DNA from: Marinomonas sp. THO17
GTDB lineage: Bacteria > Pseudomonadota > Gammaproteobacteria > Pseudomonadales > Marinomonadaceae
NCBI RefSeq assembly: GCF_040436405.1
Contig: NZ_AP031575.1
Coordinates: forward strand, 2,779,501-2,843,500
Direction of reading: 5' to 3'
Length of the DNA: 64,000 nucleotides
This document shows positions 40,261-59,263 of the stretch, piece by piece (the first letter of the stretch is position 1; each line of letters starts with the position of its first letter). Position numbers and translations under genes: made by a program. The notes under the pieces were generated by a model. That model was not told where the DNA came from, did not search any database, and saw only the letters and a program-made list of their open reading frames with translations.

Positions 40261-40800
40261 ATGAAACGCATATCATTGAAACACGGACTGATTATCCTAT
40301 TTGCCAGCTTCTTCTTATCTGCTTGCTCCACTACAGAGGTCTCCATTTACGCCAACAACACGCCGAAATTTGATCTACAATCCTTTTTCTCTGGTGAGTT
40401 ACGTGCGCATGGCATACTGAAAAATCGCAGCGGTAAGGTCATTCGTTATTTTAATGCTACATTGGATGGCCGTTGGGAAAAGGGTGTGGGTACCTTAGTA
40501 GAAGTCTTTGTGTTTGATGACGGTGAAATACAAAATCGTACTTGGACCATGACCCCCAATGCCTCAGGTCAATACATAGCGACAGCCAATGATGTGGTTG
40601 GCTCAGGTGAAATCAAAATGGCGGGAAATGCCTTATTTATGAAATACGTGCTGCAAGTGCCTTACGATGGTGACATTATTGAAGTCACGGTGGATGACCG
40701 CATGTACATGGTGAAAGAGGGTGTGGTAATCAATGAGTCTGTGATGACTAAATTTGGTTTTGAAGTAGGCTATTTGTCCATTGTGATCGAAAAGGTTTAA
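40261..40800 (+). CDS. DUF3833 lipoprotein
   Basis: A 179-residue lipoprotein with lipobox LSAC (about residue 21). The DUF3833 pattern is visible: FFSGELRAHGILKNRSG, RYFNATLDGRW, a DDGEIQNRTW segment and the MYMVKEGVVINES strand. Ser/Thr after the lipid-bearing Cys suggests the outer membrane. Last gene of the sigma-driven operon, 18 bp after the secreted-protein gene. Function unknown. Confidence 0.87.
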   Translation: MKRISLKHGLIILFASFFLSACSTTEVSIYANNTPKFDLQSFFSGELRAHGILKNRSGKVIRYFNATLDGRWEKGVGTLVEVFVFDDGEIQNRTWTMTPNASGQYIATANDVVGSGEIKMAGNALFMKYVLQVPYDGDIIEVTVDDRMYMVKEGVVINESVMTKFGFEVGYLSIVIEKV

Positions 40801-40935
40801 AAGTGTCTTTTGGTTACTCAAGCAGTCTCCTTCTATAACTCCTTTGATCTGATTCACAATTCATTACATTGATAACTTGCTGATAGCCGCAATGCCAACT
40901 AGGTTTTTAGTTGGTATCAGTAACAATCTTTATGG

Positions 40936-42969: not shown

Positions 42970-43018
42970 TGCACTGAATTAATGCTGGTAATCTGTACTA
43001 ATCCAAACTCAACCCCTT

Positions 43019-43058
43019 GCCCTATCATCAAGGTTTTTCCTCTCCTTGATGATAGGGC
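43019..43058. terminator. 15-bp perfect hairpin between convergent MCP genes
   Basis: GCCCTATCATCAAGG (43019-43033) and CCTTGATGATAGGGC (43044-43058) are exact reverse complements around TTTTTCCTCT. Placed between two gene ends, so it probably acts as a bidirectional terminator despite lacking a U tract. Confidence 0.68.
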
Positions 43059-43067
43059 ATGGGTAAA

Positions 43068-44804
43068 TTAATCGTCGCTGTTCATATAGGCAGACAATTG
43101 ATCCACATGGCTTTTCGTTTCATCGATAAGAGAAGAAATCTCATGGGCCGATTCTGTCGTACTCTTGGCAAGGTTACGTACTTCGTCTGCTACCACTGCA
43201 AAACCTCGTCCCGCTTCCCCAGCGCGAGCGGATTCAATGGCAGCGTTGAGGGCCAGTAAATTCGTTTGATCAGAAATGCCGTTAATGGTTTGAATGATAC
43301 TACCAATACGCTCTAAAACTTGAGACATAGCGCCGTGTGTTTTCTTGATCACGGCATTTCGTTCTGTGACGTCAGAACCATAAATCAATATTTTACTGAG
43401 ATTACCTTCCGCATCGAATACCGGTGTTATGGCAACGGCCAGAATGAGTTCATTCATGGTCAATTCGGCATTGATGAATTCGCCATTTTGTACCTTACTC
43501 CACTGTTCGGAAGTGATGTAGGTGTTGAGGTTTTTGATATTGCTTTGCAAGGTAGCGAACTCGGAGATAGCAAAACTTTCCATTGCTTTAGGGTTGGCTA
43601 ATTCCAGCTCTCCGTTAGGACTAAATTCCATTACGATATTACTTAAATTAATGGCCTCTAAACGAACATCATTTTCTAAGGCTCTTCGTTTGGTTTCGTC
43701 AATATTAGCTTGGATGGAGATGAACTTAATTAACTCACCATTTTCATCGAACACGGGATTAATTGCCAAACTGATCCAATAAGCATCACCATGTTTATCG
43801 TAATTGAGGATTTCATCGTAGAAGGCAACACGATTACGAAGGTTTTCAGATATCCTTTCCACTGTGGCTTTGGACGTGTGTTCTCCTTGAAGCATCGAAC
43901 CGGGTTTTTTGCCTATCACCTCTTCTAAGGTGTAATGCGTCAGTTTGGTGAAGCCAGGATTGACGTATTCGATTAAGCCCTTCTCATCTGTAATAACAAC
44001 GGAATTGGCTGTTTCGTTGGCCACCAATGAGAGTGTGGCGAATTGTTCTTGTTGTAATTTTTGTTCAGTAATGTCTTTTACAAAGGCGGTGTAAAGAATT
44101 TTGCCATTTGATTCAATTTTAGACAGTGACAAGTTTGCCCAAATCTTTCGGTCGTCAAGTGTTTCGATTTGAATGTCTCGAGAGGTGCCAACAATTTTAT
44201 CGACGCCAGTGGTTCTGTTGGCATTGACCAGATTATCATGATTACCCTGAATGGCTCTGGGCACTAACATCTTAACGTTGTTACCTAATACTTGGTCTCT
44301 TGTGGTTCCCCAGAGCTTTTCTGCGGCCTTATTAAAAAAGATAACATTATTGTTTTCATCTATGGTGACCACCCCATCAATACACTGTTCTAAGGTTTGG
44401 TCAATTCTATCAATGGCTTCTTTTTGTGAGGAAATGTCTTTGATAAAAGCGGTATAGGTGATTTTTCCATTCATTTTAATCCGAGAAAGTGCGAGATTAC
44501 ACCATATATTGGTGCCGTCTTTTCGTGGCACCAATATATCTCTGGATTGGCCGACAATTTTATCAATTCCCGTTGTGCGGTTGGCGTTGACATAGTCATC
44601 GTGATTGGCTTGTATTGCTTTAGGCACCAACATTTTAACGTTATTACCTATCACTTCTGATCGCGTATAGCCCCACAAATTTTCAGCCGCTTTATTAAAA
44701 AATGTGACCTTATTGTTTTCATCAATACTAACGACCGCATCGATCGCTTGTTCTAACACTTGTAAGGTACTGTCGGAAGATCCTGGAAACAATCCGCTTA
44801 ACAT
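43068..44804 (-). CDS. Cytoplasmic multi-PAS chemoreceptor
   Basis: A 578-residue soluble MCP without membrane helices. PAS domains 1 and 2 (about 10-125 and 130-245) are tandem near-copies ([19 protein letters not shown] against [19 protein letters not shown]). A third PAS (about 258-375) is standard, and a fourth (about 385-485) is degenerate. The signalling part at the end is short but has the tip [20 protein letters not shown] and [15 protein letters not shown]. This fits BdlA-like soluble receptors for redox or aerotaxis. Convergent with the PilZ receptor. Confidence 0.88.
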
Positions 44805-45248
44805 AATTTTTCCTCAAATGAGATAGGTCCGTTAGGAAAGAAAGCAATGGTTGTTTTCTTACTATTGAGATTAGAAGACCCCCGTTTTTTTTCAAGTTAG
44901 ATAGTTGAGGGCTTTTGTTAAGGTTTGTATGAATGAAGGTGATTTAGGTGAGCGATGGAATATTGCTGGTCGGATAAGCGTATAGGAGGGCTAACGATAA
45001 AGAAAAGCCAACAGAGGTTTCGAAGGCATGCAAATTTTTTGTGTCATATTATGCTCATTGCGGAACCTTGTCTTTCTATCTTACTAGTATAGAAGTTGCG
45101 TTCATATTATCTGTTGATGGGATAATCAGTCTATTTAAAACATGGATTGAGTATTAGGAAAGACCTATTCGTATCTTTCTTAATTCACGGTCACCTAAGA
45201 TTGGCGCAAATTGAAATCATGTCTGTCTCAGTTTAGGGGAAGTGGATA
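44805..45248. other. Gene-free region between MCP and glycosyltransferase genes
   Basis: This 444-bp stretch has no plausible gene on either strand. It is AT-rich. The promoter of the multi-PAS receptor must lie at its left end; nothing else is recognised before the hairpin at 45249. Confidence 0.5.
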
Positions 45249-45284
45249 CGCCCATGATCCACTTGGACGTCTGGATCATGGGCG
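45249..45284. repeat. 13-bp perfect inverted repeat
   Basis: CGCCCATGATCCA (45249-45261) and TGGATCATGGGCG (45272-45284) pair exactly around CTTGGACGTC, downstream of the glycosyltransferase gene. No T tract on either side, so it may be a terminator or a structured site. Confidence 0.7.
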
Positions 45285-45320
45285 CATGAGAGAACCGTTA
45301 TTTTAGAAGAGGGGAGTTTG

Positions 45321-46592
45321 TTAATGAAGGTAGCCAAACTCTTTTAAAGCGAGTATCGCATTTTCTACGCCATTTTCAGCGCGAATCTTCTGACCTAATT
45401 GGGAAGCATTTTGTTGAATCGCTGCTGAATTGGCATCTTCAATGTAACGCACCAATTGTGTCACCGAAAAGTTTTTTTGGTCCAGAGAACCAGGAGACAC
45501 TCCAAGTCGTTTTAGGCACCAGGCCCAAAAGGGTTGGTCTGCTAAAAAAGGCACGATAATAGAGGGAATACCAGCTCTTGCTGCCGCGGCTGTGGTACCT
45601 GCTCCGCCATGATGTATCGCCATGCTGACACGAGGAAAGAGCCAATCATGCGGGGCGTTGTCAATGAGACAGATTTGCTTCTCTAAGCCAGATATTTGTT
45701 CTGTCGATAAGCCACCCCATCCAGAAGCCAGTATGGCCCGCTGGCCACTTAAGCGAATGGCGGTAATGATTTTTTCTGTTAACTCAGCAGCATTTCCATT
45801 AAGCATACTACCAAATCCTACATAGATGGGTTTAGAACCGTTATTGAGGAAGTCTTCTAGGTATTTTGGAGGCTGCCAACTAGCAGCTTGGTCATAAAAC
45901 CAGAATCCAGATACGGCAATATTGGCTTGCCAATCTTTTGGGCTTGGTAACAGATGTTGGCTGTATCCATAAAGGATTGGTTTGTGCTTTATTGCGGGTA
46001 AATAATAAGGGCTATGCAAAGGATAGGGCTTTAACCCTAATTGTTTACGTAGTTTGGTGTTAATCGCTGGACGTAAAATGTGCCAGCCGATAAAGCGAAA
46101 GACATGGTGACTGGCAAGGTTATACCATTCGCTTCCCTTGTCTTTTGGTAACGGTAATCCCATGGCCGGAATTTTTCGGGTCGGTGTCATGGGTTGCAGA
46201 TGTGATATGGCAAAGGGGATGTCGAGTAATTCTGACAAAGAGGATACTATGGGGACAGACATGCCACTACCTATCAGTAAATCTGCTCCCTTAGCTGCAT
46301 GGATACCTTGAGTTGCCCATTGATCAGCCATATTGAGTATGCCTCGGCGAGCAACCTTAAATATTGTTAAGATGCTTTTGCCCTTCTTAAGCTGCTCCGG
46401 GTTAGTTGCCATCAGCTCAAGAAAATCGGCATCAATAAGAGAGAAGTCTAATCCGGCGGATTCAACCAAAGGTTGAAATTTGATATTACAAACAAGGCAG
46501 ACCTGATGACCTAATTTTTTAAGTCCAATGCCTAATGCAACTAAAGGTCTTACGTCCCCTTGAGTACCAATAGAAATAATGACTATTTTCAT
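45321..46592 (-). CDS. UDP-glycosyltransferase family protein (GT1/GT28-like)
   Basis: A 423-residue two-domain GT-B glycosyltransferase. The N-terminal domain starts IVIISIGTQGDVRPLVALG, typical of sterol/macrolide and rhamnosyl GT1 enzymes; the C-terminal nucleotide-sugar site has HHGGAGTTAAAARAGIPSI and PFLADQPFWA. AGGAGG lies before the ATG. Such enzymes glycosylate small lipophilic acceptors such as antibiotics or lipids. The acceptor is unknown, and no biosynthetic neighbours define it. Confidence 0.88.
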   Translation of the reverse strand: MKIVIISIGTQGDVRPLVALGIGLKKLGHQVCLVCNIKFQPLVESAGLDFSLIDADFLELMATNPEQLKKGKSILTIFKVARRGILNMADQWATQGIHAAKGADLLIGSGMSVPIVSSLSELLDIPFAISHLQPMTPTRKIPAMGLPLPKDKGSEWYNLASHHVFRFIGWHILRPAINTKLRKQLGLKPYPLHSPYYLPAIKHKPILYGYSQHLLPSPKDWQANIAVSGFWFYDQAASWQPPKYLEDFLNNGSKPIYVGFGSMLNGNAAELTEKIITAIRLSGQRAILASGWGGLSTEQISGLEKQICLIDNAPHDWLFPRVSMAIHHGGAGTTAAAARAGIPSIIVPFLADQPFWAWCLKRLGVSPGSLDQKNFSVTQLVRYIEDANSAAIQQNASQLGQKIRAENGVENAILALKEFGYLH

Positions 46593-46721
46593 ACTAACCT
46601 CCTGTATCGATGTAATAGAAACTGCGCTATCGTCTAATAGCCAAAGCTATTGTTAATTCCTGATCCTGGAATATTCCGATTAGGGCGGACTATAAATAGT
46701 GGAACTTAGAAAGGCAAGCTT

Positions 46722-47258
46722 TTAAAAGCTAGAATTGGGTTCCTGAAGAAATGTTTTTTCGGCCTCAGTAGACGGACGGCCCAAAATGGCATTGCGGTGG
46801 GGGTAACGACCAAATCTATCGATAATGGCTTTATGCTGAATCTCGAAGGCTAAATTGTTTTCATTACCCAGTGATGTAAAAAGGGATAAAGCTTCGACAT
46901 GAATGAGTTTAGACTCACTGTGCATAAAGGGCATATAGAGGAAAGCACGTTGTTTTTCGGGTAACTCTGAATCAAAGCCTTGTGTTATTGCGAATTGAGC
47001 CAAAGCTAACGCCAATAGGTCTGAGGCAAAGGCAGCGGGTTTATCTCGATAAATATTGCGAGAGAACTGATCGAGAATGATGATTTCTGCCAAACTTCCG
47101 ACGGCAGTATGACGCCATGAAAAGAGCTCTCCAGCGCTTGCTTGGTCGTGTAGTTTTCCAAAACGCTGCTGAATCATAAGATCAAAAGCATGGTCTTTTT
47201 GAAACCATTGCTTTGGATCCACTTCTGAAAACCAAAAGTCGATCACCTCTTGATACAT
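46722..47258 (-). CDS. DUF924 family protein
   Basis: A 178-residue cytosolic helical protein starting VIDFWFSEVDPKQWF, with ILDQFSRNIYRDKPAAFASD and the FLYMPFMHSE motif of the DUF924 family (TPR-like fold). Function of the family is not established. It lies just downstream of the aminotransferase gene in the same direction, so it may share its transcript. Confidence 0.87.
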   Translation of the reverse strand: MYQEVIDFWFSEVDPKQWFQKDHAFDLMIQQRFGKLHDQASAGELFSWRHTAVGSLAEIIILDQFSRNIYRDKPAAFASDLLALALAQFAITQGFDSELPEKQRAFLYMPFMHSESKLIHVEALSLFTSLGNENNLAFEIQHKAIIDRFGRYPHRNAILGRPSTEAEKTFLQEPNSSF

Positions 47259-47283
47259 GTGCCTGCTCCCTTGTTGTCTTGTT

Positions 47284-48609
47284 TCAGTCTAGGACAACTT
47301 GTCGAAAACCGTCGAGGAAGAATTCGGCTTCCGCTTGTGTTAAGCAAAGGGGGGGTCTTAATTTCAAGGTTGCGCCCTGTTTGCCTGCGGCACCTGCCAA
47401 TATTTTTTGCTCTCGTAAGCGATCAATCACCTGAATAGTGCGTTCAGCATCAGGTACGCCCTGTGCTTGGATATCTATGCCGAAAAATAATCCTGAGCCA
47501 CGTATTTCCCCTATCATGGAAGAGTGTTCAGCAATATCGAGAAGATGAGCTTTAATCTGATTCCCCAAAACGCGGGCATTTTCTTGTAGGCCTTCACTTG
47601 CTAAGGTGTTTAATACCGCGAGGCCCGCCGCTGCAGCCACAGGGTTGCCACCAAAGGTATTGAAATACCCCACATCCTCACAAAAGGCTTCTAATAAATA
47701 AGGTTTGGTGATCACCCCGGCCATGGGAAAACCGTTACCCATGGGTTTGCCCATAGTGACCATATCAGGTACCACTGCGTGGGCGGAAAAACCCCAGAAA
47801 TGGGTGCCAGTACGTGCAAACCCCGGCTGTACTTCATCAGCAATATACACACCACCGGCACGACGAATGACTTCAACAGCAGAATGCAAAAAGCCGTTTG
47901 GGTGTGTGAATACACCATCGGAAGAAAAAATAGAATCTAATAATAGCCCTGCCACCTTGATACCGCGTTGGGAAAGTTCATCGATGGCAGCTTGTACCCG
48001 ATTGGCAAAGCCCTGCTCTATATCCGCGCCATAGTTTTGTGTTGAAGGCGCTGGAATCGCTACCACATGGTTAGGTAAGGTGTCGTTTTTTAAGCTGGAA
48101 GGAGACACTTGTGTCACATAGGCGGTATTGCCGTGGTAGGCGCATTCTGTGACAATAAAGCCGCTTCCTCGAGTCGATTTACAAGCCAAGCGCATGGCCA
48201 GATCATTGGCTTCGCTGCCAGAGCAAGTCAGCACGACATTGGACAATGGCGCTGGGAAGGTGGCTTTGAGCTTTTCAATGTACTCATCCACTATGTTTAC
48301 CAAATATCGTGTATTGGTGTTAAGTTTGGCCATTTGTTGAGCCACAGCTTCAATCACCGCAGGGTGACAGTGACCAATACAAGGCACATTGTTATAAAAG
48401 TCTAAATATTCACTCCCATCAGCCGCTGTCATCCAAGCGCCTTTTGCAAAGACCATTTCGATTGGCTGGCGATAAAACAGCACAGATGAGGCGCCGACAT
48501 TATTTAATCTACGTTGTACTGCATGACTAACCTTGGACCTGGCTTGATCAAAGGCATTCATATCCAGGATTTGGGCAGGCTTGTCTGGCTTTGGATAAAG
48601 CTCCGTCAT
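47284..48609 (-). CDS. Class III aminotransferase-fold PLP enzyme, AGXT2L-like
   Basis: A 441-residue PLP enzyme with [23 protein letters not shown] and the Schiff-base Lys in [11 protein letters not shown] (about 270-280). It overlaps by four bases with the APH-type kinase gene upstream. In animals the AGXT2L proteins of this fold are phospho-lyases on phosphoethanolamine or 5-phosphohydroxylysine, and bacterial homologues can be fused to an APH-type kinase. The pairing here suggests such a kinase/phospho-lyase route for an amino alcohol. A plain aminotransferase activity remains possible. Confidence 0.82.
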
Positions 48610-49628
48610 GCTTCTTGTCTCCGGTTATTTTCCTCAACTTTTGCCAGATTATCCAAATAGGCTTGCGCCAATTTGACGGTGCCTTGAGTGAATTTGCCCA
48701 GACCAACGTCTTGCGCGGTTTGCGTCTCTGAATGACTGGCAACCCAAGCGGTTAACAGCAAACGACGAAACAGAATAAAGGTGGGAATCATGGCCTCGTG
48801 CTGTGCGGATAATTCACGTATCGAACGATAGCCTTTTAACCAAGCTGCTTGCAAATCGGCAATATAGGCTTCCTCTTCATAGAAGGAGATGGCGGCAGCA
48901 AAGTCATACATAAACCAGCTAAAACCACAGTCATCAAAGTCAATCACAGATAAATTACCGTCATCGACCAACAGATTTGCCAGGCGTAAATCCGCATGAA
49001 TCAAACCAAAACGATCCGCTTCTTGACCATAGTCTGCCAGCTTTTGCTTTAATACAGCACACAACTGATCCAGTAGGTTTTCTTGTTCTGGAGCTAAATC
49101 AATGGCCTGACGCCAGCTTCCCCATAATGGCGTGTCGCCCAAAGCGGTATCATAGGTCCAGCTTTTGCGCACAAAGTGTGCTGGTAAAGTCCAATGTAGC
49201 GCATGATTATGCAGTCTTGCTGATATGGCACCCAGGGTTTCGAAACCTGTGACCAGATCCTCATCTGCCTTAGGTTCATCTCCCGCTAAAAATTCAAAGG
49301 CCACCACATACCTTTGTTGGTCACCGTCCATAAAAGCGCTTATTAGTGAGCCATCGATGCGTTTTATTGGTGCTGGTGCTTTTACTGTGTCACTTTGCGT
49401 TAAGGCCTGTAGCCAGTCGAGTTCGGAGCGAATTTCCTCAAACCTGTGGTAATCGGGTCTGTGTACGCGAAGAATGATAGGAGCAGATTGCTGAGGATCC
49501 TGTACCAGAAAGGTGGCGTTTTCCGATAAAGTCAGTAGTTTAACCTCAGCCATGTCGCTGATCCCCCAAGAAGGAAGTAAAACTTGTAGACCTAGTTTAA
49601 TGCGTTCAATGAAGCCTTCGTTATACAC
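48606..49628 (-). CDS. APH-family kinase, hydroxylysine/ethanolamine kinase-like
   Basis: A 340-residue phosphotransferase of the aminoglycoside/choline kinase fold. The start is GTG 49628. Catalytic loop LIHADLRLANLL (about 198-209) and metal-binding VIDFDDCGFSW (about 217-228) are visible, as is an N-terminal ATP-binding lobe (APIILRVHRPDYHR). It precedes the AGXT2L-like gene with a four-base overlap, so the two work together: probably phosphorylating an amino alcohol that the PLP enzyme then splits. The exact substrate is unknown. Confidence 0.82.
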   Translation of the reverse strand: MYNEGFIERIKLGLQVLLPSWGISDMAEVKLLTLSENATFLVQDPQQSAPIILRVHRPDYHRFEEIRSELDWLQALTQSDTVKAPAPIKRIDGSLISAFMDGDQQRYVVAFEFLAGDEPKADEDLVTGFETLGAISARLHNHALHWTLPAHFVRKSWTYDTALGDTPLWGSWRQAIDLAPEQENLLDQLCAVLKQKLADYGQEADRFGLIHADLRLANLLVDDGNLSVIDFDDCGFSWFMYDFAAAISFYEEEAYIADLQAAWLKGYRSIRELSAQHEAMIPTFILFRRLLLTAWVASHSETQTAQDVGLGKFTQGTVKLAQAYLDNLAKVEENNRRQEA

Positions 49629-49782
49629 TCTCAGTTCCCCGTTTCAGCAGATTCATTTATCAAGCAAAGCGCATTTGCTGATGAATGTTATGAAATAACT
49701 CGCTTGGATCGTTTCTTGCAAAGTTAATTCCAAAATAGGAATCCAAGACAAATATTCATCAGATAAGCGAGGTTGTTTCACC

Positions 49783-50565
49783 ATGTTTGCATCTCTTTCG
49801 GGAAAAGTGGCTATAGTGACGGGCGGATCAAAAGGCATAGGTAAGGGCATTGCCAAGGTGTTTGCGAGACAAGGTGTGAAAATCATGATTGCGGCACGTG
49901 GTGAGCAAGATGCAAAGGAAGCAGTGGACGACATCATCGCCGCAGGTGGGCAAGCGGATTATTGTTTATGTGATGTGTCGAATTGGCAAGATGTGCAAGC
50001 TTTATTATCAAAAACCCTTGAAACGTATGGAAAAATTGACATTCTGTGTGCCAACGCAGGGATTTTTCCACAACAAAAAATGATCGATATGTCTGCTGAT
50101 GATTGGGACAAGGTTATGTCGACAAATTTGAAAAGTACGTTTTTGACGGTAAAAGCCTGCTTACCTCATTTTGCCAAAGCCGGGCAGGGCCGTGTCATCG
50201 TTACTTCCTCCATTACAGGCCCTGTAACTGGTTATCCGGGTTGGTCTCACTATGGTGCATCCAAATCCGGTCAGTTGGGCTTTATTAAAACCGCTGCAAT
50301 GGAATTAGCGCCTTATAATACTACGATTAATGCGGTGATGCCGGGTAACATAATGACGGAAGGTTTGGCGGATCTGGGGGAAGAGTATTTGACGTCTATG
50401 GCGGCTTCTATTCCATTGAAACGACTTGGTTCGGTAGAGGACATTGGTAACGCGGCATTGTTTTTTGCGACCGATGAAGCCAGCTATATTACCGGTCAGC
50501 AAATGGTTGTGGATGGTGGTCAAATACTGCCAGAAAGCTTAGATGCCATAAATGAAATGACGTAA
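49783..50565 (+). CDS. Short-chain dehydrogenase (FabG-like)
   Basis: A 260-residue SDR oxidoreductase: VAIVTGGSKGIGKGIAKVF at the N terminus (NAD(P) binding), NAG motif in LCANAGIFP, catalytic Ser in SSITGP and YGASKSG (Tyr-x3-Lys). C-terminal YITGQQMVVDGG is typical of FabG-like enzymes. It is divergent from the kinase/PLP pair and may share control; the substrate is unknown. Fatty-acid FabG is less likely given that location. Confidence 0.88.
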   Translation: MFASLSGKVAIVTGGSKGIGKGIAKVFARQGVKIMIAARGEQDAKEAVDDIIAAGGQADYCLCDVSNWQDVQALLSKTLETYGKIDILCANAGIFPQQKMIDMSADDWDKVMSTNLKSTFLTVKACLPHFAKAGQGRVIVTSSITGPVTGYPGWSHYGASKSGQLGFIKTAAMELAPYNTTINAVMPGNIMTEGLADLGEEYLTSMAASIPLKRLGSVEDIGNAALFFATDEASYITGQQMVVDGGQILPESLDAINEMT

Positions 50566-50601
50566 GCAAGAGTGAATCTGTTCGCGGTATCAGGAGAGGA
50601 T

Positions 50602-50973
50602 TCAGTTTGCCAAGGGGGAGCTAATATCGATTAAACAACCACTTGGGTCTTTAACAAGGAATCTTCTTTGGCCATAGAATTCGTTACGTGGCGTTTGGAG
50701 GATGGGAACTTTCATGGTTAGCGCTTTGTTATAAATCCCTTCTATGTCTTCCACCACAAAAGTGACATACATGCCCGTGGGTATGGCTTGGTACTCTTTG
50801 GGAACCAATGCATGATTCCGTTGAATAATACCGTATTCCAAGTCGGAGTTCGTTGGTGAACACAGTTGGATATACCAATTGCTTTCGTAGTTCACCTTAA
50901 GACCAAGTAGTGATACGTAAAAGTCTCTGCTTTTAGGAAGATCATCAGAACAGATATTCGTCAGTATTCTCAT
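50602..50973 (-). CDS. Glyoxalase-fold (VOC) protein
   Basis: A 123-residue single VOC domain: ILTNICSDDLPKSRDFYVSLLG at the N terminus, YVTFVVEDIEGIY, and the C-terminal RRFLVKDPSGCLIDI. Members are metal-dependent isomerases, dioxygenases or resistance proteins. Too small and general to assign a substrate. Single gene, convergent with the SDR. Confidence 0.82.
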   Translation of the reverse strand: MRILTNICSDDLPKSRDFYVSLLGLKVNYESNWYIQLCSPTNSDLEYGIIQRNHALVPKEYQAIPTGMYVTFVVEDIEGIYNKALTMKVPILQTPRNEFYGQRRFLVKDPSGCLIDISSPLAN

Positions 50974-51273
50974 TGTCTTTTCCTTTGGTTGGCAAGCTTG
51001 GTGTTAACATCATTCGATTTTGTTATTTTTCCAATTTTCCATTGTTATTCTGCTTAAATAATGTCGTTTTAACCGCCATTTTTATCATGAGTTTCTTAAA
51101 TGGAACTTTAATAAAATGGGTATTTAGATCTTATACAGAAGATCATTACTAGTTAGTTACTTTTAACCTATTTTTCCCTGCATTTTGCCGATTATGTTCT
51201 ATCCTCACTGTATAAAATACTTCGTTTCATACGCTGTTAATAGTGCCAATCAAAGGACTAAAGGAGGGATAGG
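50974..51273. other. Gene-free region
   Basis: A 300-bp AT-rich gap between divergent genes. It must hold both promoters, but no clear boxes, repeats or RNA were recognised. Confidence 0.4.
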
Positions 51274-51858
51274 GTGGCAAAAAAAGATGAAGTTATAGTG
51301 AAGGACAGATTTCGTAACTATGGCGAGTACTCAAATAGTCTGAGCTATTGCGTTAACTTAAAGCCCAGAATACGAAATTCGGCGGCCATTTTTCATGATG
51401 CTTGTGTCTCCCATGACGTTGGCATTGATGGTGAAACCGATTTTTTCACTATCTTAACAAAAGTGCATAAATGCATAGGTAAATGTTGTAAAAGGAAGTG
51501 GGTGGTGTATGGGAGTAGTCCGAATATTCCCAGCAAGTATACCTTAGAAGTGTCTAAAAAAGTGCTGATTGGTGTTGGTCGAGTTCCTCACCCTGAAAAC
51601 AAAGGTGACCTGCATTTCTACGTAGTCACCCAGATCAATGGTGATGGACAAAGTATCGATGCCATGAGTAATAGCATTCAAGCTTGTCAGTTGCACTTCA
51701 ATAAGGACAAGCACCATTACGAACTTATTCAATATGTTGGCCGTCATTCTGATCACCCGGTCCATTATGAATTTCTTGGTTTCTTCACTACCGGACTTCT
51801 TCCGAGTGAAACTAGTATCGAAAAAGCGCAATATTACCCTGCTTATCAAATGTCCTAA
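51274..51858 (+). CDS. Hypothetical protein
   Basis: A 194-residue soluble protein, GTG start, with a very strong AAGGAGGG site. It has a Cys-rich middle (KCIGKCCKRKW) and then a beta-rich part with GDLHFYVVTQINGDGQ and LIQYVGRHSDHPVHYEFLG. No signal peptide or membrane helix, and no family recognised. It stands alone upstream of the convergent EamA gene, with locally lower GC than core genes, so it may be an accessory acquisition. Confidence 0.65.
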   Translation: MAKKDEVIVKDRFRNYGEYSNSLSYCVNLKPRIRNSAAIFHDACVSHDVGIDGETDFFTILTKVHKCIGKCCKRKWVVYGSSPNIPSKYTLEVSKKVLIGVGRVPHPENKGDLHFYVVTQINGDGQSIDAMSNSIQACQLHFNKDKHHYELIQYVGRHSDHPVHYEFLGFFTTGLLPSETSIEKAQYYPAYQMS

Positions 51859-51973
51859 TCATATCAATTACAGCAAAAACACATGGTGATTGTGAGCTTG
51901 AATGTACAAACATAATCTAAAGCCACAATGAAAAGCGTGCAGGCGAAACAGTTGGCACGCTGCTTCGCCAACC

Positions 51974-52882
51974 CTAAGTACGCTGCAAAGATGTAACAAT
52001 CACACTGAGTAAAATAAAGCCTGCCCCTATGATCTGAGTTAGGGAGAGAGATTCATTCAGCCAAACTAGGGCAAAGATAGCACCGAATAGTGGTTCGCTT
52101 CCCATCAATAGAGCAACCCGAGTTGGTGAGGTTCTTCTGACGGCATAATTCTGCACATAAAAAGCGAATAAGGTACAAAATAACACTAGGTAGATAAGGG
52201 TCAGCCAAAAGGCCAGTTCATCAGGAAGAGTCATCTTACTGTCCGGTAAGATGATGAGTAGTAGGATGGCCACGCTGGCAACAACGAATGATTGAATGGC
52301 CGTCAGTGTTGTGGTCGATATGGATTTATTCTCGGTAAAACGTTTTGTGAATGTAACCATGCCAGCACGCAGTAAAGCTGCCCCTAAAATAAAGTAATCT
52401 CCTTTATTGAGCGAAAAAATGTCGCTTTGCTTTCCTGTCAACAGGAAGACACCGAATACACTGATACTGCAAAGCAGCATTAACCACAGCCACTGCTTGA
52501 GTTTCTGTGGTGTCATTAAGGCTTCCAAAATCGCTGTGAAGAGTAACGACAAACTGATTAAAAATGCGGCGTTTGAAGCCGTTGTGTTGGCCACACCAAA
52601 TACTTCACAAAAAAAGATGGCGGAAAGAATCAACCCTGTTGGCAGAGCAACTTGCCAATCCTTGTTTCGACCTAAACGAAAATCTCTTAGTACCATTGGC
52701 AGCAAGCACAAAAAGGTCATGGAAAAGCGAATGGAAATAAACACCAACACACTAGTGTAAAGCAAAGCGCTTTTGGTGAGCCCATAGCTGGTTCCCCAGA
52801 AAATGGCGACTAATAATAGCAAGCATTCTGTGATGGGGAAGGAGTGCTTGTGTTTATTGAATAGTTTGGCTGTCATTTCCAT
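51974..52882 (-). CDS. EamA/DMT family exporter
   Basis: A 302-residue inner-membrane transporter with ten hydrophobic helices in two EamA repeats (about 18-140 and 160-300), the second ending GSEPLFGAIFALVWLNE and GAGFILLSVIV. I start at ATG 52882, after GGAGG; a longer ATG at 52912 would overlap the dioxygenase gene further. It overlaps the 3' end of the dioxygenase gene by 29 bp, so it is the last gene of the ArgG-like/dioxygenase operon and the likely exporter of its product. Confidence 0.88.
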   Translation of the reverse strand: MEMTAKLFNKHKHSFPITECLLLLVAIFWGTSYGLTKSALLYTSVLVFISIRFSMTFLCLLPMVLRDFRLGRNKDWQVALPTGLILSAIFFCEVFGVANTTASNAAFLISLSLLFTAILEALMTPQKLKQWLWLMLLCSISVFGVFLLTGKQSDIFSLNKGDYFILGAALLRAGMVTFTKRFTENKSISTTTLTAIQSFVVASVAILLLIILPDSKMTLPDELAFWLTLIYLVLFCTLFAFYVQNYAVRRTSPTRVALLMGSEPLFGAIFALVWLNESLSLTQIIGAGFILLSVIVTSLQRT

Positions 52883-53618
52883 GTTGCGCTGCCTCCAGTT
52901 TTGTAAATGCAATGACTAACACATCCCGATAGGCTTTTGTGGCAGTGTCTTTGATGATGATAGGGGTTACCTTATGTAGGGTTTTTTCATCATCGGCAAG
53001 CAATAAATCGAACTTCTGTTCTAGGGTAGTTTGGATTAAATGGTGGCCATCGTTATTCACTAGAATGCTCTTGCCACCGACAATATTGACTCGATTAATT
53101 AACAAAGTGGCGATATAAGTAACACCATCACGATGCAGGCCTTCAGGGGTGGGTTTGCCCAATTCTTGACGATTGGCGAGGATGCGATAAGGGTGTAAAC
53201 GAATGTTCCAGTCTGTGGCTTGCCCTTCCACTTCATCATAGATGTCACACATATATGTCAATAGCTTGGTCGTAATTGAGGATTCAATAAAGTCTTTGGT
53301 AAGAGGATCAAAATGACGCTCGATATCGCCATTAAGATAATTGATATGGGCCGGTTGAACGTAGGCCTCATGTGGTAATTGCGTTAACCTTTCATTCCCT
53401 TTGGATTTTAAAAACTGACCATAGCGACGATAGCGGTAAGTGCCGCCATCGCCCATATACTTATCAAGTGTTAGTAGATCCCAACAGGCGCAAAAATCCT
53501 CGATGACGTGACCATCCACCTGTAGGTCGTTGAGGACTTGCTCACCACTAATAAGCGCATAATGTTGCTTTTTTAAGGCTTCTGAAACAGACGGGTTAAG
53601 ATTTTGCTTACGATGCAT
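52854..53618 (-). CDS. 2-oxoglutarate/Fe(II) dioxygenase (PF10014, IDO-like)
   Basis: A 254-residue enzyme of the 2OG-Fe dioxygenase family that includes L-isoleucine 4-hydroxylase and related free-amino-acid hydroxylases. The iron triad is visible: His162 and Asp164 in LHRDGVTY, His215 in LHKVTPI, with Arg231 (RDVLVIAF) placed for 2OG. The HINYLNGDIERHFDPL segment is family-typical. It lies 17 bp after the ArgG-like gene and overlaps the exporter gene; probably hydroxylates an amino acid that the ligase joins. Confidence 0.86.
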   Translation of the reverse strand: MHRKQNLNPSVSEALKKQHYALISGEQVLNDLQVDGHVIEDFCACWDLLTLDKYMGDGGTYRYRRYGQFLKSKGNERLTQLPHEAYVQPAHINYLNGDIERHFDPLTKDFIESSITTKLLTYMCDIYDEVEGQATDWNIRLHPYRILANRQELGKPTPEGLHRDGVTYIATLLINRVNIVGGKSILVNNDGHHLIQTTLEQKFDLLLADDEKTLHKVTPIIIKDTATKAYRDVLVIAFTKLEAAQHGNDSQTIQ

Positions 53619-53635
53619 AAGGTGATTCCATGTCC

Positions 53636-54844
53636 CTAAATGGTTTCTATTATTTTGTTTTCATTACGAGGCAGGCTTCTCAAACTGCGTTGCTGAGCAA
53701 TTTGAACTTCCCAATCATCACGATTGCAAAGGTATTTGGCATGACGCCCTACAATACGTTTTGCTATGGCATTTCCTCTGGAAAGCTGAAAGGTCACATG
53801 GCCGGTAATTTGGGTTGACGTGTGCTGAATAAAGGCATAGCTTGCCTCTTTTAAGACACTTTCCCATCTCCCTTCCACGGCTTCTTGAGTCCAAATGTCA
53901 TTGTGTAGAGATTTTGTTCTTAGTACGTCGGTCGGCAAGATGGCGGTTTCGAGTAGTTTATAAGCTCGCATTAATAGGGTGGCAGCAGGCGCTTCCCTGA
54001 TTTCCAGCACTTTTTCATCGTTATCAAGGTGGTCAAAACCCACATAACGTCCCATTTCATAAGCACCAGCTCGACTGTTAAGGGTAGATATGATTTGGAT
54101 CAGATCCATAGGGTGGTTGTTGATGGTGACGGGGTAGCCTTTAAAAAAGCCAATATTGACCTGATGGTGATCGAAATGCTGTAGGGGATCCCATTTTGAC
54201 CAAGTAAATAATGATTCAGGCAAATTAAAATTCTCTGGATCATCAAGAATGCCGGATTCAAATTCACGGCACCAAAGATTCTCATCACCACTAACATTAC
54301 GTGATTTAAAAGACACTAATCCAGATGCCACTACGGCATTGCTTTTCTCTTCTCTGGTGAGGGCGGAGTATTCATAAGGCGAGCCATAAAAACCGTCAAA
54401 AGTACTGGATTCAATCGCGCCATTTAGACGTCGTAAGCTGTTTTGAGATTGATTGGCAGAATGAATAATGGCATCGCAGTTGAGTTCTTGCGCCACCTCT
54501 ACGGCTTTTTTCACTATGCAGGGACGTGATAGGGAGGAGCTGACAGGATAGTCACCTAAATACAGTGCTTGTGACCGTATTGCTGCCACAATAGCGCCTT
54601 CTACCAAATCGTTTTTTGCATCCACTATGCGCAGGTCAATATCATAATGTTTGCTAATAAGCCCAAGGGAAGAAACATCGATTTCAGCACCAAGATCGAC
54701 CACTAAGGCTGTGACTTTTACGTCTTTCTTGCTTAGAAGTTCCAGTATATAGGTGCTGTCTAAGCCACCACTGAATAAGGTGAGGACATGCTGTGCTGAG
54801 TCACAAACGGTATCCAGATCCTCAATACTTCTTAACTTCTTCAT
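53636..54844 (-). CDS. Argininosuccinate synthase-like ligase (ArgG family, divergent)
   Basis: A 402-residue adenylating enzyme with PP-loop SGGLDST (25-31), ALVVDLGAE (46-54), the ArgG-like SSSLSRPCIVKKAVEVA (102-118) and CDAIIHSANQSQNSLRR (123-139). The order and spacing match argininosuccinate synthase, but the GxxGKGND citrulline/Asp-binding signature is replaced (HSANQSQNS), so a different acceptor is expected. ArgG activates a ureido carbonyl for attack by an amino acid; here an analogous condensation is inferred. Divergent from a LysR gene. Confidence 0.72.
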   Translation of the reverse strand: MKKLRSIEDLDTVCDSAQHVLTLFSGGLDSTYILELLSKKDVKVTALVVDLGAEIDVSSLGLISKHYDIDLRIVDAKNDLVEGAIVAAIRSQALYLGDYPVSSSLSRPCIVKKAVEVAQELNCDAIIHSANQSQNSLRRLNGAIESSTFDGFYGSPYEYSALTREEKSNAVVASGLVSFKSRNVSGDENLWCREFESGILDDPENFNLPESLFTWSKWDPLQHFDHHQVNIGFFKGYPVTINNHPMDLIQIISTLNSRAGAYEMGRYVGFDHLDNDEKVLEIREAPAATLLMRAYKLLETAILPTDVLRTKSLHNDIWTQEAVEGRWESVLKEASYAFIQHTSTQITGHVTFQLSRGNAIAKRIVGRHAKYLCNRDDWEVQIAQQRSLRSLPRNENKIIETI

Positions 54845-54942
54845 TATATTTCGTTTTTCCCTTTTAGAGAGGTTGACTCAAAGAGTATCTATAATTAGTT
54901 TCAGGTAAACAATATGGCTAATTCGCAAAGGATTTTTGCATT

Positions 54943-55857
54943 ATGGATATGAATAGATTGATCCCTTTGTTATCGGAATTGGCGATTTTTGTCAGTGTGG
55001 TGGAGGCAGGTAGTTTTTCAAAAGCATCAATCAAATTGGGCATGGCGACGTCTTCTGTGAGTCGCTCTATGACGCGTTTGGAAAATACGTTAGAAGAGAA
55101 GTTACTGAAAAGAACCACCCGCAAGATGACGTTAACCGACACAGGTCAAGAGGTGTATTATCTGTGTCGAGATATGCTGCAATCTGCTCAGTTGGCTGTG
55201 TCAGCAGCACAGGTGGATAAAAGCCAAGTATCCGGGGTGTTGCGAGTGGCGGCTCCTAAAGCTTTGTCTAGGCAAATACTCATGCCTATGGTGCTGGAGT
55301 TTATGCAGACTTTCCCACAAGTGATGTTGCAGCTTAAAGTGGTTGATCATTATATTGATCCTATCAGTGATCAAGTGGATGTGATTATTCGTATTACAGA
55401 TAACCCAGAGCAAGGTTTAATTGGTCAGGTGCTCGGACAATGCCGATTAATGGTTTGCGCTACACCAGACTATCTTGAAAAACATGGTGTACCAGCTCAT
55501 CCTGATGAGCTGATTGGGCACAATTGCCTATGTCTTGGTGAAAGCCCACTCGATCAGGTGTGGCAATTTACCAAAGGGACGGTTAAGAAGTCAGTTCAAG
55601 TACAAGGCTCAATGAGTGTGAATCACTCTGAAATACGTCGTGAAGCGGTACTGCAAAACATGGGTATTTCGGTGTTTCCTGAATTTTCCATTCAACCGTA
55701 TCTTGAGACAAACCAAGTTGTCGAACTCTTCAAAGACTGGCACATGAAGGGTAATTATCAAGGTGACATTATCGCTCAATATGTTCAGTCTAAATACATA
55801 CCCATGCAGATTAAAACCTTCGTCGATTTTCTTAAACAGAGGTTCTATTCAGTTTGA
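54943..55857 (+). CDS. LysR-family transcriptional regulator
   Basis: A 304-residue regulator with an N-terminal winged helix-turn-helix (LAIFVSVVEAGSFSKASIKL, then VSRSMTRLENTLEEKLLKR, about 12-60) and a C-terminal substrate-binding domain of CrgA-like type. It is divergent from the ArgG-like gene with a 98-bp gap, the usual arrangement in which the LysR protein controls the neighbouring operon. Ligand unknown. Confidence 0.9.
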   Translation: MDMNRLIPLLSELAIFVSVVEAGSFSKASIKLGMATSSVSRSMTRLENTLEEKLLKRTTRKMTLTDTGQEVYYLCRDMLQSAQLAVSAAQVDKSQVSGVLRVAAPKALSRQILMPMVLEFMQTFPQVMLQLKVVDHYIDPISDQVDVIIRITDNPEQGLIGQVLGQCRLMVCATPDYLEKHGVPAHPDELIGHNCLCLGESPLDQVWQFTKGTVKKSVQVQGSMSVNHSEIRREAVLQNMGISVFPEFSIQPYLETNQVVELFKDWHMKGNYQGDIIAQYVQSKYIPMQIKTFVDFLKQRFYSV

Positions 55858-55953
55858 TGTTGTAAGTATTGATTCACTTGGTAAACAAACTGTTAATTCA
55901 GTTTTATACATAACGTTTCTTACTAAGGTTAGGCTGCTCGCTTCTGTCATATT

Positions 55954-57639
55954 TCATTTTAGTGGAGGTTTAGAGAAGAGTTCGCTAGTCACAGAGTTCA
56001 ACTCAAGAAATGGGGTTTTAAAATGTCTAGCTGAGATGAAGGAATTTTCTCCATCAATGATAAATTCTTCCTCATCTTGCTCAACGGTTCTGCCTTGAAG
56101 AGCCATCCCAATAACCTCGCAATATGCATTTAACAATGGAGCTCCACTGGCTCCACCCTCTATATCTTTATCTACTCCCATATATTCTGCATGGTGACGT
56201 TTATAACTTGATTTAATAACTTTCATTTCTATGAGGCTTAGCTGCGCGTGGTAATCGGCGTATTTGGGAAAGCCTGCTAGCAGTAGTTCATAACCTGAGT
56301 TAATTGTCTTGAGTTTTTGGGAGATCGAAAGTGGTACAATCGTTTCTGTAGCGGGGGTGTTTGTTTCAAGGCGAAGAAAAGCGATATCGAATCGATCAAT
56401 CCTACTAATTATCTTAGCATGAAATTTGTCGTGACCACTTGCAAACTTTAAGAAACATCCTTTCGTTGCACCAGATTTTTTGAATGTATGTGCTGCCGTG
56501 ACGAAGATATTTTTTGCTATACAGAATGCGCTCCCTTGGACAAATTCGTCTATTTCATTGTTTTCTTGATAGCCTTCGAAACTTACTACTAAAATTGCTT
56601 TTTGTAGCAAGTTTATTTTCGATTTGTAAACTGTATTAAAGTTGATTTTTTGATCATTCTCTGTCGATAGTTTTATGCGTATATTTAGTCCAATAGTATT
56701 GAAGTTAGAGGCTAGGGTTCTGTATACACTGGAGTGTTTGCCTTTTACCATACCTATATACGTGATTCTGCCATGTACAACATTATCTAGGCTGGCTTTA
56801 TGCTCTGGATATTTGGATCGAAATTTTTCCCTAGCATTGTCTAAATCTAGAGTCATTGAATGAACCATTGCTCTTGTGGTACGTATATATCGACGGTCAA
56901 TATTGATCTTACGGTTAACTTTCAAGCCTGTTACAACTTGTCTTTCGTTTTTGTATTGCACGCGAGTCTTTTGCTGATTGATTTTAAAACCGTGTTGAGT
57001 AATCAAAGCTGTTAAATCTGAACTCGGATCTCTGTTTTCAGTAAAAATATTTTGCGACGATAAATGAGAGAATGAGAATGTTATATCATCGGCATATCTA
57101 GAATAGTAAGCGCTATTTTGCTTCGCTAAATGGCTCATATCTCGATCAAATGAACGACAAATTAAGTTTGATACTAATGGGGATGTAGGTGCACCTTGTG
57201 GGAGCTTTCGGTCATAGCAACATAGATTTGCTATGAGTCTAGCAGTTTCAGATTGAAGTGAATAAGGCGGAGCTATAAACATTCCGTATATTCGTCCAAA
57301 GTGAATTGAACCAAAAAAATCTTCTAAGTCGATATTAAATACGGCTGTTTTTTTTAAATGTTTTTTTGCGTTGAAAACTATACCTTTTTCTTTAATAAAT
57401 GCTGTTGCCGCAGAATGGGGAGAGCTACTCTGCTCTAGTAGATCCACTAATTTGCGTTGAACTGCTTTTAGAGGTCTGTTAGGGGCAAGAATAGTTCTCG
57501 TTTCACCATTCTTTTTCTCGATTTCAAATGACTCGTAAGAATCTAATAATTGTTTTTTATAAACTATGAAATTTAGCCATTGAAGCTTTACATTAAGCAG
57601 GTTTGCTAATTCTTGGGGGGATGTCGAAGGTGTAATCAA
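55954..57639 (-). CDS. Retron reverse transcriptase fused to trypsin-like protease
   Basis: A 561-residue fusion. Residues 1 to about 320 form a retron-type RT: NAKKH (90-94, the NAXXH motif), IDLEDFFGSI, QGAPTSPLVSNL (148-159), YADD (182-185) and VTG (236-238). Residues about 350-561 form a trypsin-like serine protease with His384 (VTAAHTF), Asp418 (RFDIAFLRL) and Ser498 (GGASGAPLL), a full triad. Start codon is TTG 57639; its ribosome site overlaps the a2 repeat. RT-protease retrons have been described as a retron type, and the protease is the likely toxic effector in anti-phage defence. AT-rich relative to neighbours, so probably acquired. Confidence 0.9.
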   Translation of the reverse strand: MITPSTSPQELANLLNVKLQWLNFIVYKKQLLDSYESFEIEKKNGETRTILAPNRPLKAVQRKLVDLLEQSSSPHSAATAFIKEKGIVFNAKKHLKKTAVFNIDLEDFFGSIHFGRIYGMFIAPPYSLQSETARLIANLCCYDRKLPQGAPTSPLVSNLICRSFDRDMSHLAKQNSAYYSRYADDITFSFSHLSSQNIFTENRDPSSDLTALITQHGFKINQQKTRVQYKNERQVVTGLKVNRKINIDRRYIRTTRAMVHSMTLDLDNAREKFRSKYPEHKASLDNVVHGRITYIGMVKGKHSSVYRTLASNFNTIGLNIRIKLSTENDQKINFNTVYKSKINLLQKAILVVSFEGYQENNEIDEFVQGSAFCIAKNIFVTAAHTFKKSGATKGCFLKFASGHDKFHAKIISRIDRFDIAFLRLETNTPATETIVPLSISQKLKTINSGYELLLAGFPKYADYHAQLSLIEMKVIKSSYKRHHAEYMGVDKDIEGGASGAPLLNAYCEVIGMALQGRTVEQDEEEFIIDGENSFISARHFKTPFLELNSVTSELFSKPPLK

Positions 57640-57643
57640 AAGT

Positions 57644-57775
57644 GCTCGTCCCTAATTTCACATTGCGCCGTGTCACTATCGTCAACATTAAACAACTACC
57701 ATATTGGCGATAAAGTCTAACCATATTGTCTTTTGGTAGCATTTTAAACCACCGAGATTAATTCCAAGGACGAGC
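57644..57775 (-). ncRNA. Putative retron msr-msd RNA with a1/a2 repeats
   Basis: On the minus strand GCTCGTCC (a1, 57775-57768) opens a 132-nt region that closes with its exact complement GGACGAGC (a2, 57651-57644), four bases before the RT start. Between them are candidate hairpins CTACCA...TGGTTAG (msr) and ACTTTATCG...CGATAGTG (msd). Position, size and repeats match retron ncRNAs. The branching G cannot be placed with certainty. Confidence 0.75.
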
Positions 57776-57802
57776 CTAATCAAGATTAAACTCAGAATGA
57801 TC

Positions 57803-57819
57803 TTAAGTAAAGTACTTAA
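57803..57819. promoter_or_regulatory. Palindrome between retron and urtA
   Basis: TTAAGTA-AAG-TACTTAA, a perfect 7-bp inverted repeat with a 3-base spacer. It could be an operator for urtA (161 bp downstream) or lie in the retron promoter. Confidence 0.4.
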
Positions 57820-57979
57820 CTACGTCATTTAACCTAGGTCCATAGGGTAATTAGCGCATACCCTGTGAGGTGTTTTTTTTGAATACTGAATGGACTGCTC
57901 ACTAGGTCATAACCATATGATAAAGCGCCTAAGTGATCAGTTTGTACGCATCAAAAAATCACAATAGGACGACTCAATC

Positions 57980-59263
57980 ATGAAAATTAAGACGCTTGCT
58001 TCTGCGATTGCGCTGACCAGTGCGACGCTTATTGCTTTCCCTTCTCTGGCTGCTGACACCATTAAAGTCGGTGTTTTGCACTCTCTTTCAGGCACCATGG
58101 CTATTTCAGAAACGACTTTGAAAGACACAGTTCTGATGATGGTCGAAGAACAGAATAAAAAGGGCGGTTTGCTAGGTAAAAAACTTGAAGCAGTGGTGGT
58201 TGACCCTGCATCGAACTGGCCTTTGTTTGCGGAAAAAGCCCGTGAGTTATTAACGGAAGATGAAGTGGATGTCATTTTTGGTTGCTGGACGTCCGTATCG
58301 CGTAAGTCTGTCTTGCCAGTTATCGAAGAGCTCAACGGTTTAATGTTCTACCCAGTGCAATATGAAGGTGAAGAATCTTCTAAAAATGTATTCTACACAG
58401 GCGCTGCGCCAAACCAACAAGCCATTCCTGCGGTTAACTACTTAAAAGACGAGTTGGGTGTAGAGCGTTGGGTATTGGCAGGTACGGACTATGTTTATCC
58501 GCGTACCACTAACAAGATTCTAGAAGCCTACCTGAAAGACATGGGTGTCGCAGAAGAAGACATCATGATTAATTACACGCCATTTGGTCACTCTGATTGG
58601 CAGTCTATTGTTTCCGATATCAAAAAATTCGGTAGTGCAGGCAAGAAAACCGCTGTGGTATCGACCATCAATGGTGATGCAAACGTGCCTTTCTACAAAG
58701 AATTGGGCAACCAAGGTATTTCTTCAGAAGACATTCCAGTGGTGGCCTTCTCTGTGGGTGAAGAAGAGCTATCTGGTTTAGACACTGCGCCTCTAGTAGG
58801 GCACTTGGCCGCTTGGAACTACTTCCAAAGTGTAGAGAGTGATGAGAATGAAGAATTCATTACTCAGTGGCGCGCTTTCACTAAGAATCCTAAGCGCGTA
58901 ACCAACGACCCAATGGAAGCGACTTACATTGGTTTCAACATGTGGGCCAATGCTGTGACTGAAGCCGGTACAACTGACGTAGACGCGGTTGAACAAGCCA
59001 TGATAGGTCAGGAAACCCCTAACTTGACGGGCGGAACTGCAGTGATGAACAAAAACCACCACTTGAGTAAGCCAGTGTTAATCGGTGAAATCCAAGACGA
59101 TGGTCAATTTGAAGTGGTCTGGGAAACTGACGGTGTGGTGCCAGGTGATGCTTGGTCTGACTTCTTGCCAGGTTCGAAAGACCTGATTGCTGATTGGACC
59201 GACCCAATTAACTGTGGCAACTACAACACTAAGACCAAAATGTGTTCTGGGCAAAATTACTAA
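57980..59263 (+). CDS. urtA: Urea ABC transporter substrate-binding protein
   Basis: A 427-residue periplasmic binding protein of the type-1 (Leu/Ile/Val-binding-like) fold with a signal peptide ending at SLAADTI. Marks of UrtA are KVGVLHSLSGTMAISE, FGCWTSVSRKSVLPVIEEL, NGLMFYPVQYEGEESSKN and GAAPNQQ. First gene of urtABCDE; a strong hairpin follows, so it should be made in excess over the membrane parts. Urea import serves nitrogen supply; the next operon gene after urtE is ureD. Confidence 0.95.
   Translation: MKIKTLASAIALTSATLIAFPSLAADTIKVGVLHSLSGTMAISETTLKDTVLMMVEEQNKKGGLLGKKLEAVVVDPASNWPLFAEKARELLTEDEVDVIFGCWTSVSRKSVLPVIEELNGLMFYPVQYEGEESSKNVFYTGAAPNQQAIPAVNYLKDELGVERWVLAGTDYVYPRTTNKILEAYLKDMGVAEEDIMINYTPFGHSDWQSIVSDIKKFGSAGKKTAVVSTINGDANVPFYKELGNQGISSEDIPVVAFSVGEEELSGLDTAPLVGHLAAWNYFQSVESDENEEFITQWRAFTKNPKRVTNDPMEATYIGFNMWANAVTEAGTTDVDAVEQAMIGQETPNLTGGTAVMNKNHHLSKPVLIGEIQDDGQFEVVWETDGVVPGDAWSDFLPGSKDLIADWTDPINCGNYNTKTKMCSGQNY

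Follow-up and report, generated by a model that had tools for sequence, protein, structure and literature searches.

A Type XI Retron with a Reverse Transcriptase–Protease Fusion and a Conserved Upstream RNA in Marinomonas sp. THO17

The Reverse Transcriptase–Protease Gene and Its Upstream RNA

The 64,000-nucleotide (nt) stretch of contig NZ_AP031575.1 from Marinomonas sp. THO17 analyzed here (the window) carries on its reverse strand a gene that joins a retron reverse transcriptase (RT) to a trypsin-like serine protease and, just upstream of it, a 132-nt RNA bounded by the inverted repeats a1 and a2. The gene (55954–57639, stop included) is a single open reading frame (ORF) of 561 amino acids (aa) with two Pfam domains over cut-off (RVT_1, 2.3e-20; Trypsin_2, 1.5e-11), so that the effector is built in as a protease, as a first-pass annotation of this DNA had proposed. 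The TTG codon at 57639–57637 is taken as the start because residue 1 aligns under the initial Met of close relatives and because the reading frame cannot extend beyond a TAG at 57652–57654, immediately 5′ of the a2 8-mer.

The RT domain (residues 40–239; 56923–57522) contains NAKKH (residues 90–94; 57358–57372), the catalytic motif YADD (residues 182–185; 57085–57096) and VTG (residues 236–238; 56926–56934), where NAXXH and VTG are motifs by which retron RTs are recognized. The protease domain has the HtrA/Deg fold, extends over residues 369–512 according to Pfam (56104–56535) or about 331–551 by structure, and holds the catalytic triad His384 (56488–56490), Asp418 (56386–56388) and Ser498 (56146–56148), the last being the nucleophile in a G-A-S-G context. 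Conservation was counted in the best 120 of 4341 homologues at E 1e-3, a set that includes the protein itself (P0001); many of the 4341 may be RTs without a protease, and both domains are present in 118 of the best 120 according to precomputed Pfam matches. N90 and H94 are kept in 119/120 (one gap), Y182 and D185 in 120/120, A183 and D184 in 119/120, and VTG in all 120. H384 is likewise invariant, while D418 and S498 are each found in 118/120, with two gaps. The retron hallmarks named in the first-pass annotation thus all lie where they had been placed, each kept in at least 119/120 homologues, and the triad that it had described as intact is kept in at least 118/120. The closest homologue among the matches listed shares 59% identity across 91%. 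The Pfam matches listed for the protein, with E values as high as 10, include no PDZ domain.

The RNA lies at 57644–57775 on the same strand and is supported by a covariance model as well as by its fold. Its arms a1 (GCTCGTCC; 57768–57775) and a2 (GGACGAGC; 57644–57651) are perfectly complementary 8-mers around 116 nt, exactly at the coordinates first assigned to them, and the stem grows to 11–12 pairs when wobbles are included. Between the arms lie a first hairpin, the predicted msr (GGTGGT...GCTACC; 57735–57753), a long hairpin predicted to be the msd template of a multicopy single-stranded DNA (msDNA; 57676–57713) and, just 5′ of a2, a GTGAAAT motif (57655–57661). The 132-nt RNA has a predicted folding energy of −36.2 kcal/mol (z −2.62), and 1 of 200 shuffled sequences folds equally well.

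Conservation of the RNA Among Related Loci

Related RNAs were sought upstream of the RT in 32 RT-protease loci from viral contigs, plasmids, genome contigs and genomes (duplicate contigs left out), as inverted repeats with arms 75–200 nt apart. One locus, L299, was unscored since its gene is interrupted near the start, and two further pairs are identical (L192 and L288; L131 and L240), which leaves 29 distinct loci. In these the best repeat has an outer span of 118–159 nt and, in 25 of the 29, is matched by at most 3 of 60 shuffles; the exceptions are L297 (33/60), L240 (12/60), L294 (7/60) and L134 (4/60). The letters of a1 and a2 vary between loci and their complementarity stays.

Further evidence comes from a close clade of eight loci (the window, L017, L288–L292 and L300). 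GTGAAA is invariant in all eight RNAs, and TTAA precedes the first hairpin in seven, the exception being L017. Across the a1/a2 stem and first hairpin of the eight, 94.0% of cells are paired and 12 of 17 pairs have changed on both sides, values that none of 500 shuffles reaches; pairing of the window itself is understated in these figures, as MAFFT set its row one column off in a1/a2. More weight is therefore placed on the alignment without the window and on a held-out search. In the seven relatives alone, 99.1% of cells are paired and again 12/17 pairs have changed on both sides, as against 38–49% pairing in slid controls and 0/500 shuffles, which, unlike the slid controls, do not keep the relatedness of the sequences. 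The covariance model search proposed in the first-pass annotation was run with a model of the seven relatives (R2), from which the window had been held out. On the 64-kb window it returned a single significant match, 57640–57779 (−), with 47.2 bits and E 1.7e-10, the runner-up within the window having E 1.1. Together with the covarying stem and hairpin, this match supports the msr-msd form that had been suggested for the enclosed sequence; the repeats are conserved in related loci, and the a1/a2-bounded 132-nt RNA is real. Among the eight RNAs of the clade, that of the window has the lowest score (91.3 bits, the others 104–139).

R2 was also run on 57 further sources chosen from the collected loci (22 RT-protease and 35 other retron loci). 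One convincing new RNA was found, at 413–551 of L299 (27.5 bits, E 2.1e-4), just 5′ of the RT-protease gene that begins there at about 568; the other four matches in these sources had E of at least 1.3. The RT-protease copy of this locus (L266/L299) has an in-frame TAA, and its upstream RNA is still recognized by the model. A second group of nine RNAs (A5) has its own conserved hairpin and, near the 3′ end, a AAGAGAAA motif that sits where the close clade has GTGAAA. From the first hairpin to a2 the alignment is poor, and the msd hairpin at 57676–57713 is therefore predicted from the fold of the window's sequence only.

Position of the Start Codon Relative to a2

In the window, where a2 and the TTG codon together span 57637–57651, 4 nt separate the two. 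Each of the eight close-clade loci has an in-frame start codon between −12 and +5 nt relative to the a2 3′ end. Five of them (L288, L289, L291, L292 and L300) have an ATG at the 5′ edge of a2, which thereby codes for the N-terminal residues, and GGTGA ahead of this ATG is a possible ribosome-binding site. In the predicted transcript of the window, all of a2 is paired as long as a1 is included, and part of it becomes free when a1 is omitted.

When for each protease locus the in-frame start closest to the a2 end is taken, it falls at −12 to +14 nt in 23 of 29, a range that was picked after these loci had been seen. Untyped retron loci without a protease served as controls (93 scored, 61 over the repeat threshold); in these the start codon lies further past a2 more often than in the protease loci. 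At the same repeat threshold, below which the window itself falls, 19/23 protease loci and 18/61 other retron loci are within the range (Fisher p 1.6e-5, computed over loci that are related to each other). The nearest start may not be the true one: L193 is counted by a GTG and has an ATG with a better ribosome site at +26. Proximity of a2 and the start codon as a trait of protease loci is thus offered as a lead only.

Relation to Known Systems

Retron types are named by their effectors, and 13 of them were reportedly defined by Mestre and colleagues in 2020. By sequence comparison, the locus belongs to a kind of retron that has been catalogued before, type XI, and does not represent a new one. 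The PADLOC model RT-Protease_XI matches residues 5–527, and thereby both domains, with E 4.8e-152 and 505.4 bits, as compared to 393.2 bits for the next type, XII. The catalogued system (PDLC02959/PDLC02960) has the same domain order in a single gene, and no structural difference to it was seen. Types XII (RT-TIR) and I-C (RT-Toprim) match in the RT half (4.4e-118 and 1.1e-102) but carry other effectors. The nearest solved structures are those of retrons, the closest relative among them being retron Eco2 (Ec67; PDB 9lm3, 9i2f, 9s1f), an RT-Toprim fusion whose effector is a Toprim nuclease in place of the serine protease found here. The PADLOC server is described as also searching for retron RNAs (PMC9252829). 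No Rfam family reached its gathering threshold anywhere in the 64-kb window.

The protease half shares its fold and triad with the HtrA/Deg proteases (DegP, DegQ, Deg2), from which it differs in that Pfam matches no PDZ domain and that it follows an RT. Among the matches listed for this domain alone, the sole family besides the two RT-Protease_XI models is PADLOC HamA1|HamA (8.9e-6, profile 26–171). In HamA of Hachiman (HamMAB) a trypsin-like domain is likewise fused to a defense protein, although the sequence match is weak; the HamA trypsin is described as N-terminal and paired with a pro-nuclease gene (PMC12799240), whereas the protease here occupies residues 369–512 of 561. This weak likeness and the start codon inside or near a2 in the close clade are what is new in the present locus.

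Genomic Setting and Distribution

The gene is flanked on the left by a LysR-type regulator (54943–55857) and on the right by the urea transporter genes urtA–E. In another genome of the genus (G009), the same LysR is followed 2.5 kb on by the same urtA with other genes between them (L333, 4215–6718), which on reading, without a domain search, appear to encode an AraC-like regulator, a LysE-like exporter and a MOSC-like protein. Since G009 has other genes there, and since homology to G009 and to a third genome (G032) resumes at 57819 and 57820, respectively, the retron sits in a replaceable stretch of about 2 kb (55836–57820). The GC content of this stretch is 0.36–0.38, as against 0.42–0.44 at 52–56 kb and 0.46–0.47 past 58 kb. 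In G032 (L332, 11221–13506), the 40.8–57.8 kb part of the window is absent from this place and two other ORFs are present instead; 40800–57820 is therefore variable within the genus. An ORF in this region (51274–51858 (+), 194 aa) had no Pfam match at 1e-3 and no NCBIfam match at 1e-5.

When both domains are required, with an E threshold set for each search, an RT-protease occurs in one genome among 35 from the genus, in one among 390 from the order (that of the window), in three among 369 from the class, one of which has an internal TAA, and in three among 398 from the phylum. In another genus, probably Pseudomonas, 13 of 398 genomes match at 1e-90, nine of them with both domains, and one of these nine is split across two contigs. 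One further genus gave no match at 1e-90 in 25 genomes, and in one family 3 of 181 genomes matched, none with both domains. No second RT-protease was found in the window's genome, where two other trypsin-like proteases (L015 and L016; open frames of 357 and 473 aa) match the protease half. Some relatives lie in viral contigs or adjoin phage genes.

To look for a conserved partner gene, ORFs of 70 aa or more were clustered across 31 loci, of which 29 are distinct, with flanks of 1–8 kb. No family recurred in more than 6 of the 31, as judged by BLAST at 1e-6, which misses divergent families. A partner gene was rejected as a candidate, as only a serine recombinase (six loci) and, by reading, a Dam-like methylase (four loci) recurred. 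No separate effector gene was found either, and type XI is listed as a single gene in PADLOC. With its sporadic occurrence, the RT-protease locus looks like a mobile, self-sufficient defense gene.

Two plasmid loci may be recorded in their own right. On a plasmid of Phaeobacter inhibens (L135, 4273–8571), the RT-protease is flanked by two copies of an IS3-family element that share one protein accession. The annotated 3′ end of the gene runs into one of these copies, and its match to the family profile ends at 479 of 550. On a plasmid of Haematobacter massiliensis (L133, 5863–11767), the RT-protease is directly followed by an ATP-dependent endonuclease and a UvrD-like helicase, which we take to be a Gabija-like pair, and then by ArdA.

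Proposed Mechanism and Alternative Explanations

The locus is probably a single-gene type XI retron that acts as an abortive-infection device against phages. Sequence and comparison establish the RNA together with both of its conserved stems, the intactness of the RT motifs and of the triad, the lack of a recurrent partner in the loci compared and the sporadic occurrence. By analogy with other retrons, we infer phage defense and control of the effector by the RT-msDNA complex, both of which the first-pass annotation had suggested. With the a1/a2-closed RNA bound, the RT would use the msr for priming and reverse-transcribe the msd part into msDNA. The resulting complex would keep the fused protease switched off, as proposed for the Toprim of retron Eco2, where the fused effector is described as self-inhibited (PMC12405507). 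Eco2 phage escapers are reported to map to the nuclease DenB, with msDNA degradation proposed as the trigger (PMC12405507), and methylation of the reverse-transcribed DNA has been suggested as the trigger in other retrons (PMC12548924). On these grounds a phage nuclease or DNA-modifying enzyme would be expected to free the protease by cutting, modifying or stripping the msDNA. Given its fusion to an RT and the missing PDZ match, the freed protease should act in the cytoplasm, where its cleavage of at least one host or phage protein would stop growth or phage production.

The position of the start codon suggests an additional level of control. With a2 as close as 4 nt to the start codon, translation would be hindered by the closed RNA, and the enzyme would be made mainly while the RNA is open. 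It is conceivable, though on balance doubtful, that the msr-msd RNA of close-clade type XI retrons is a translational gate besides being the msDNA precursor. Closure of a1/a2, above all with the RT-protease bound to the closed RNA, would then stop further synthesis, and every protease molecule would be born bound to its own inhibitor in the manner of a toxin-antitoxin system. One RNA would in this way restrain the protease both as RNA and as msDNA.

Several results weigh against the interpretation as a working type XI retron. Judged by itself, the repeat of the window exceeds chance by only a modest margin, as its score is reached in 3 of 60 dinucleotide shuffles, and its reality is for this reason decided by the relatives. 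Among these, a weaker measure of covariation, the count of further pair types, gave values as high in 33 of 500 shuffles (without the window), and the disregard of relatedness by the shuffles limits the main measure as well. A single RNA family for all RT-proteases was tried and rejected: R2 misses the more distant RT-protease groups, as it does the non-protease retrons tried, which leaves one RNA family for all of type XI unsupported. Rfam gave no match in 57500–57900 even at E 1. A promoter and terminator scan of 55700–58100 found nothing 5′ of a1 on the strand of the gene, and in particular no sigma-70-like promoter there, and promoter-like sites in this interval are fewer than in shuffles (4 vs. 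7.6). Finally, the protein model has a predicted template modeling score (pTM) of 0.62, at which the placing of the domains, and hence any inhibition, is not established.

Rather than doing harm by a direct attack on proteins, the freed protease might activate a single pro-enzyme whose gene lies elsewhere in the genome, just as the HamA trypsin activates the pro-nuclease HamM. The match of the protease domain to HamA points in this direction, as do Hachiman and AVAST, in which a fused trypsin is described as cutting and so activating a partner nuclease (PMC12799240). The match is weak, however, and the fold is common. The nuclease gene adjoins the protease gene in those systems, whereas LysR and urtA adjoin it here; a search of 13 nearby proteins, of which the product of 51274–51858 matched nothing, gave no metallo-β-lactamase (MBL)-fold match and hence no adjacent pro-nuclease of this kind, and even the most recurrent family beside the RT-proteases is present in only six of 31 loci. 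The part of PMC12799240 consulted names the trypsin-nuclease pair for Hachiman, AVAST, Lamassu and DRT, not for retrons. As no pro-nuclease gene adjoins, in a search that covered the neighborhood and not the rest of the genome, direct proteolysis is ranked higher, and pro-enzyme activation is considered unlikely.

It is more improbable still that the element is a decayed or silent passenger, in which the protein is intact and the RNA or its expression no longer works. The TTG start, the missing recognizable promoter, the lowest RNA score in the clade and the presence in a single one of 35 genomes of the genus would fit such decay. They are countered by the catalytic residues, all intact over 561 codons, by an RNA that still scores 47.2 bits against the model of its relatives, and by an a1/a2 stem that is complete with letters of its own. 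Hardly any weight can be given to a non-retron defense RT (DRT/UG type) fused to a protease with a fortuitous upstream repeat: although some DRT systems are described as having the trypsin-nuclease pair (PMC12799240), retron models are far ahead (type XI 505 bits vs. 46 bits for the non-retron defense RT model Drt2), the nearest solved structures belong to retrons and the RNA covaries.

Significance

The reading as a single-gene type XI retron is of modest novelty, comprising a known retron type, an RNA that is now well supported and a new idea on gating. Titles and abstract openings in the literature, with subscription papers mostly outside this scope, included none about the mechanism of a protease-type retron. 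The locus is a small test system, made up of one gene and a defined RNA, in which point mutations can separate the RT from the protease. That a2 overlaps the start codon also provides a directly testable idea of how a toxic enzyme may be kept from being made without its restraint. If the proposed mechanism is true, type XI retrons would represent a bacterial immune complex that controls proteolysis by means of reverse-transcribed DNA.
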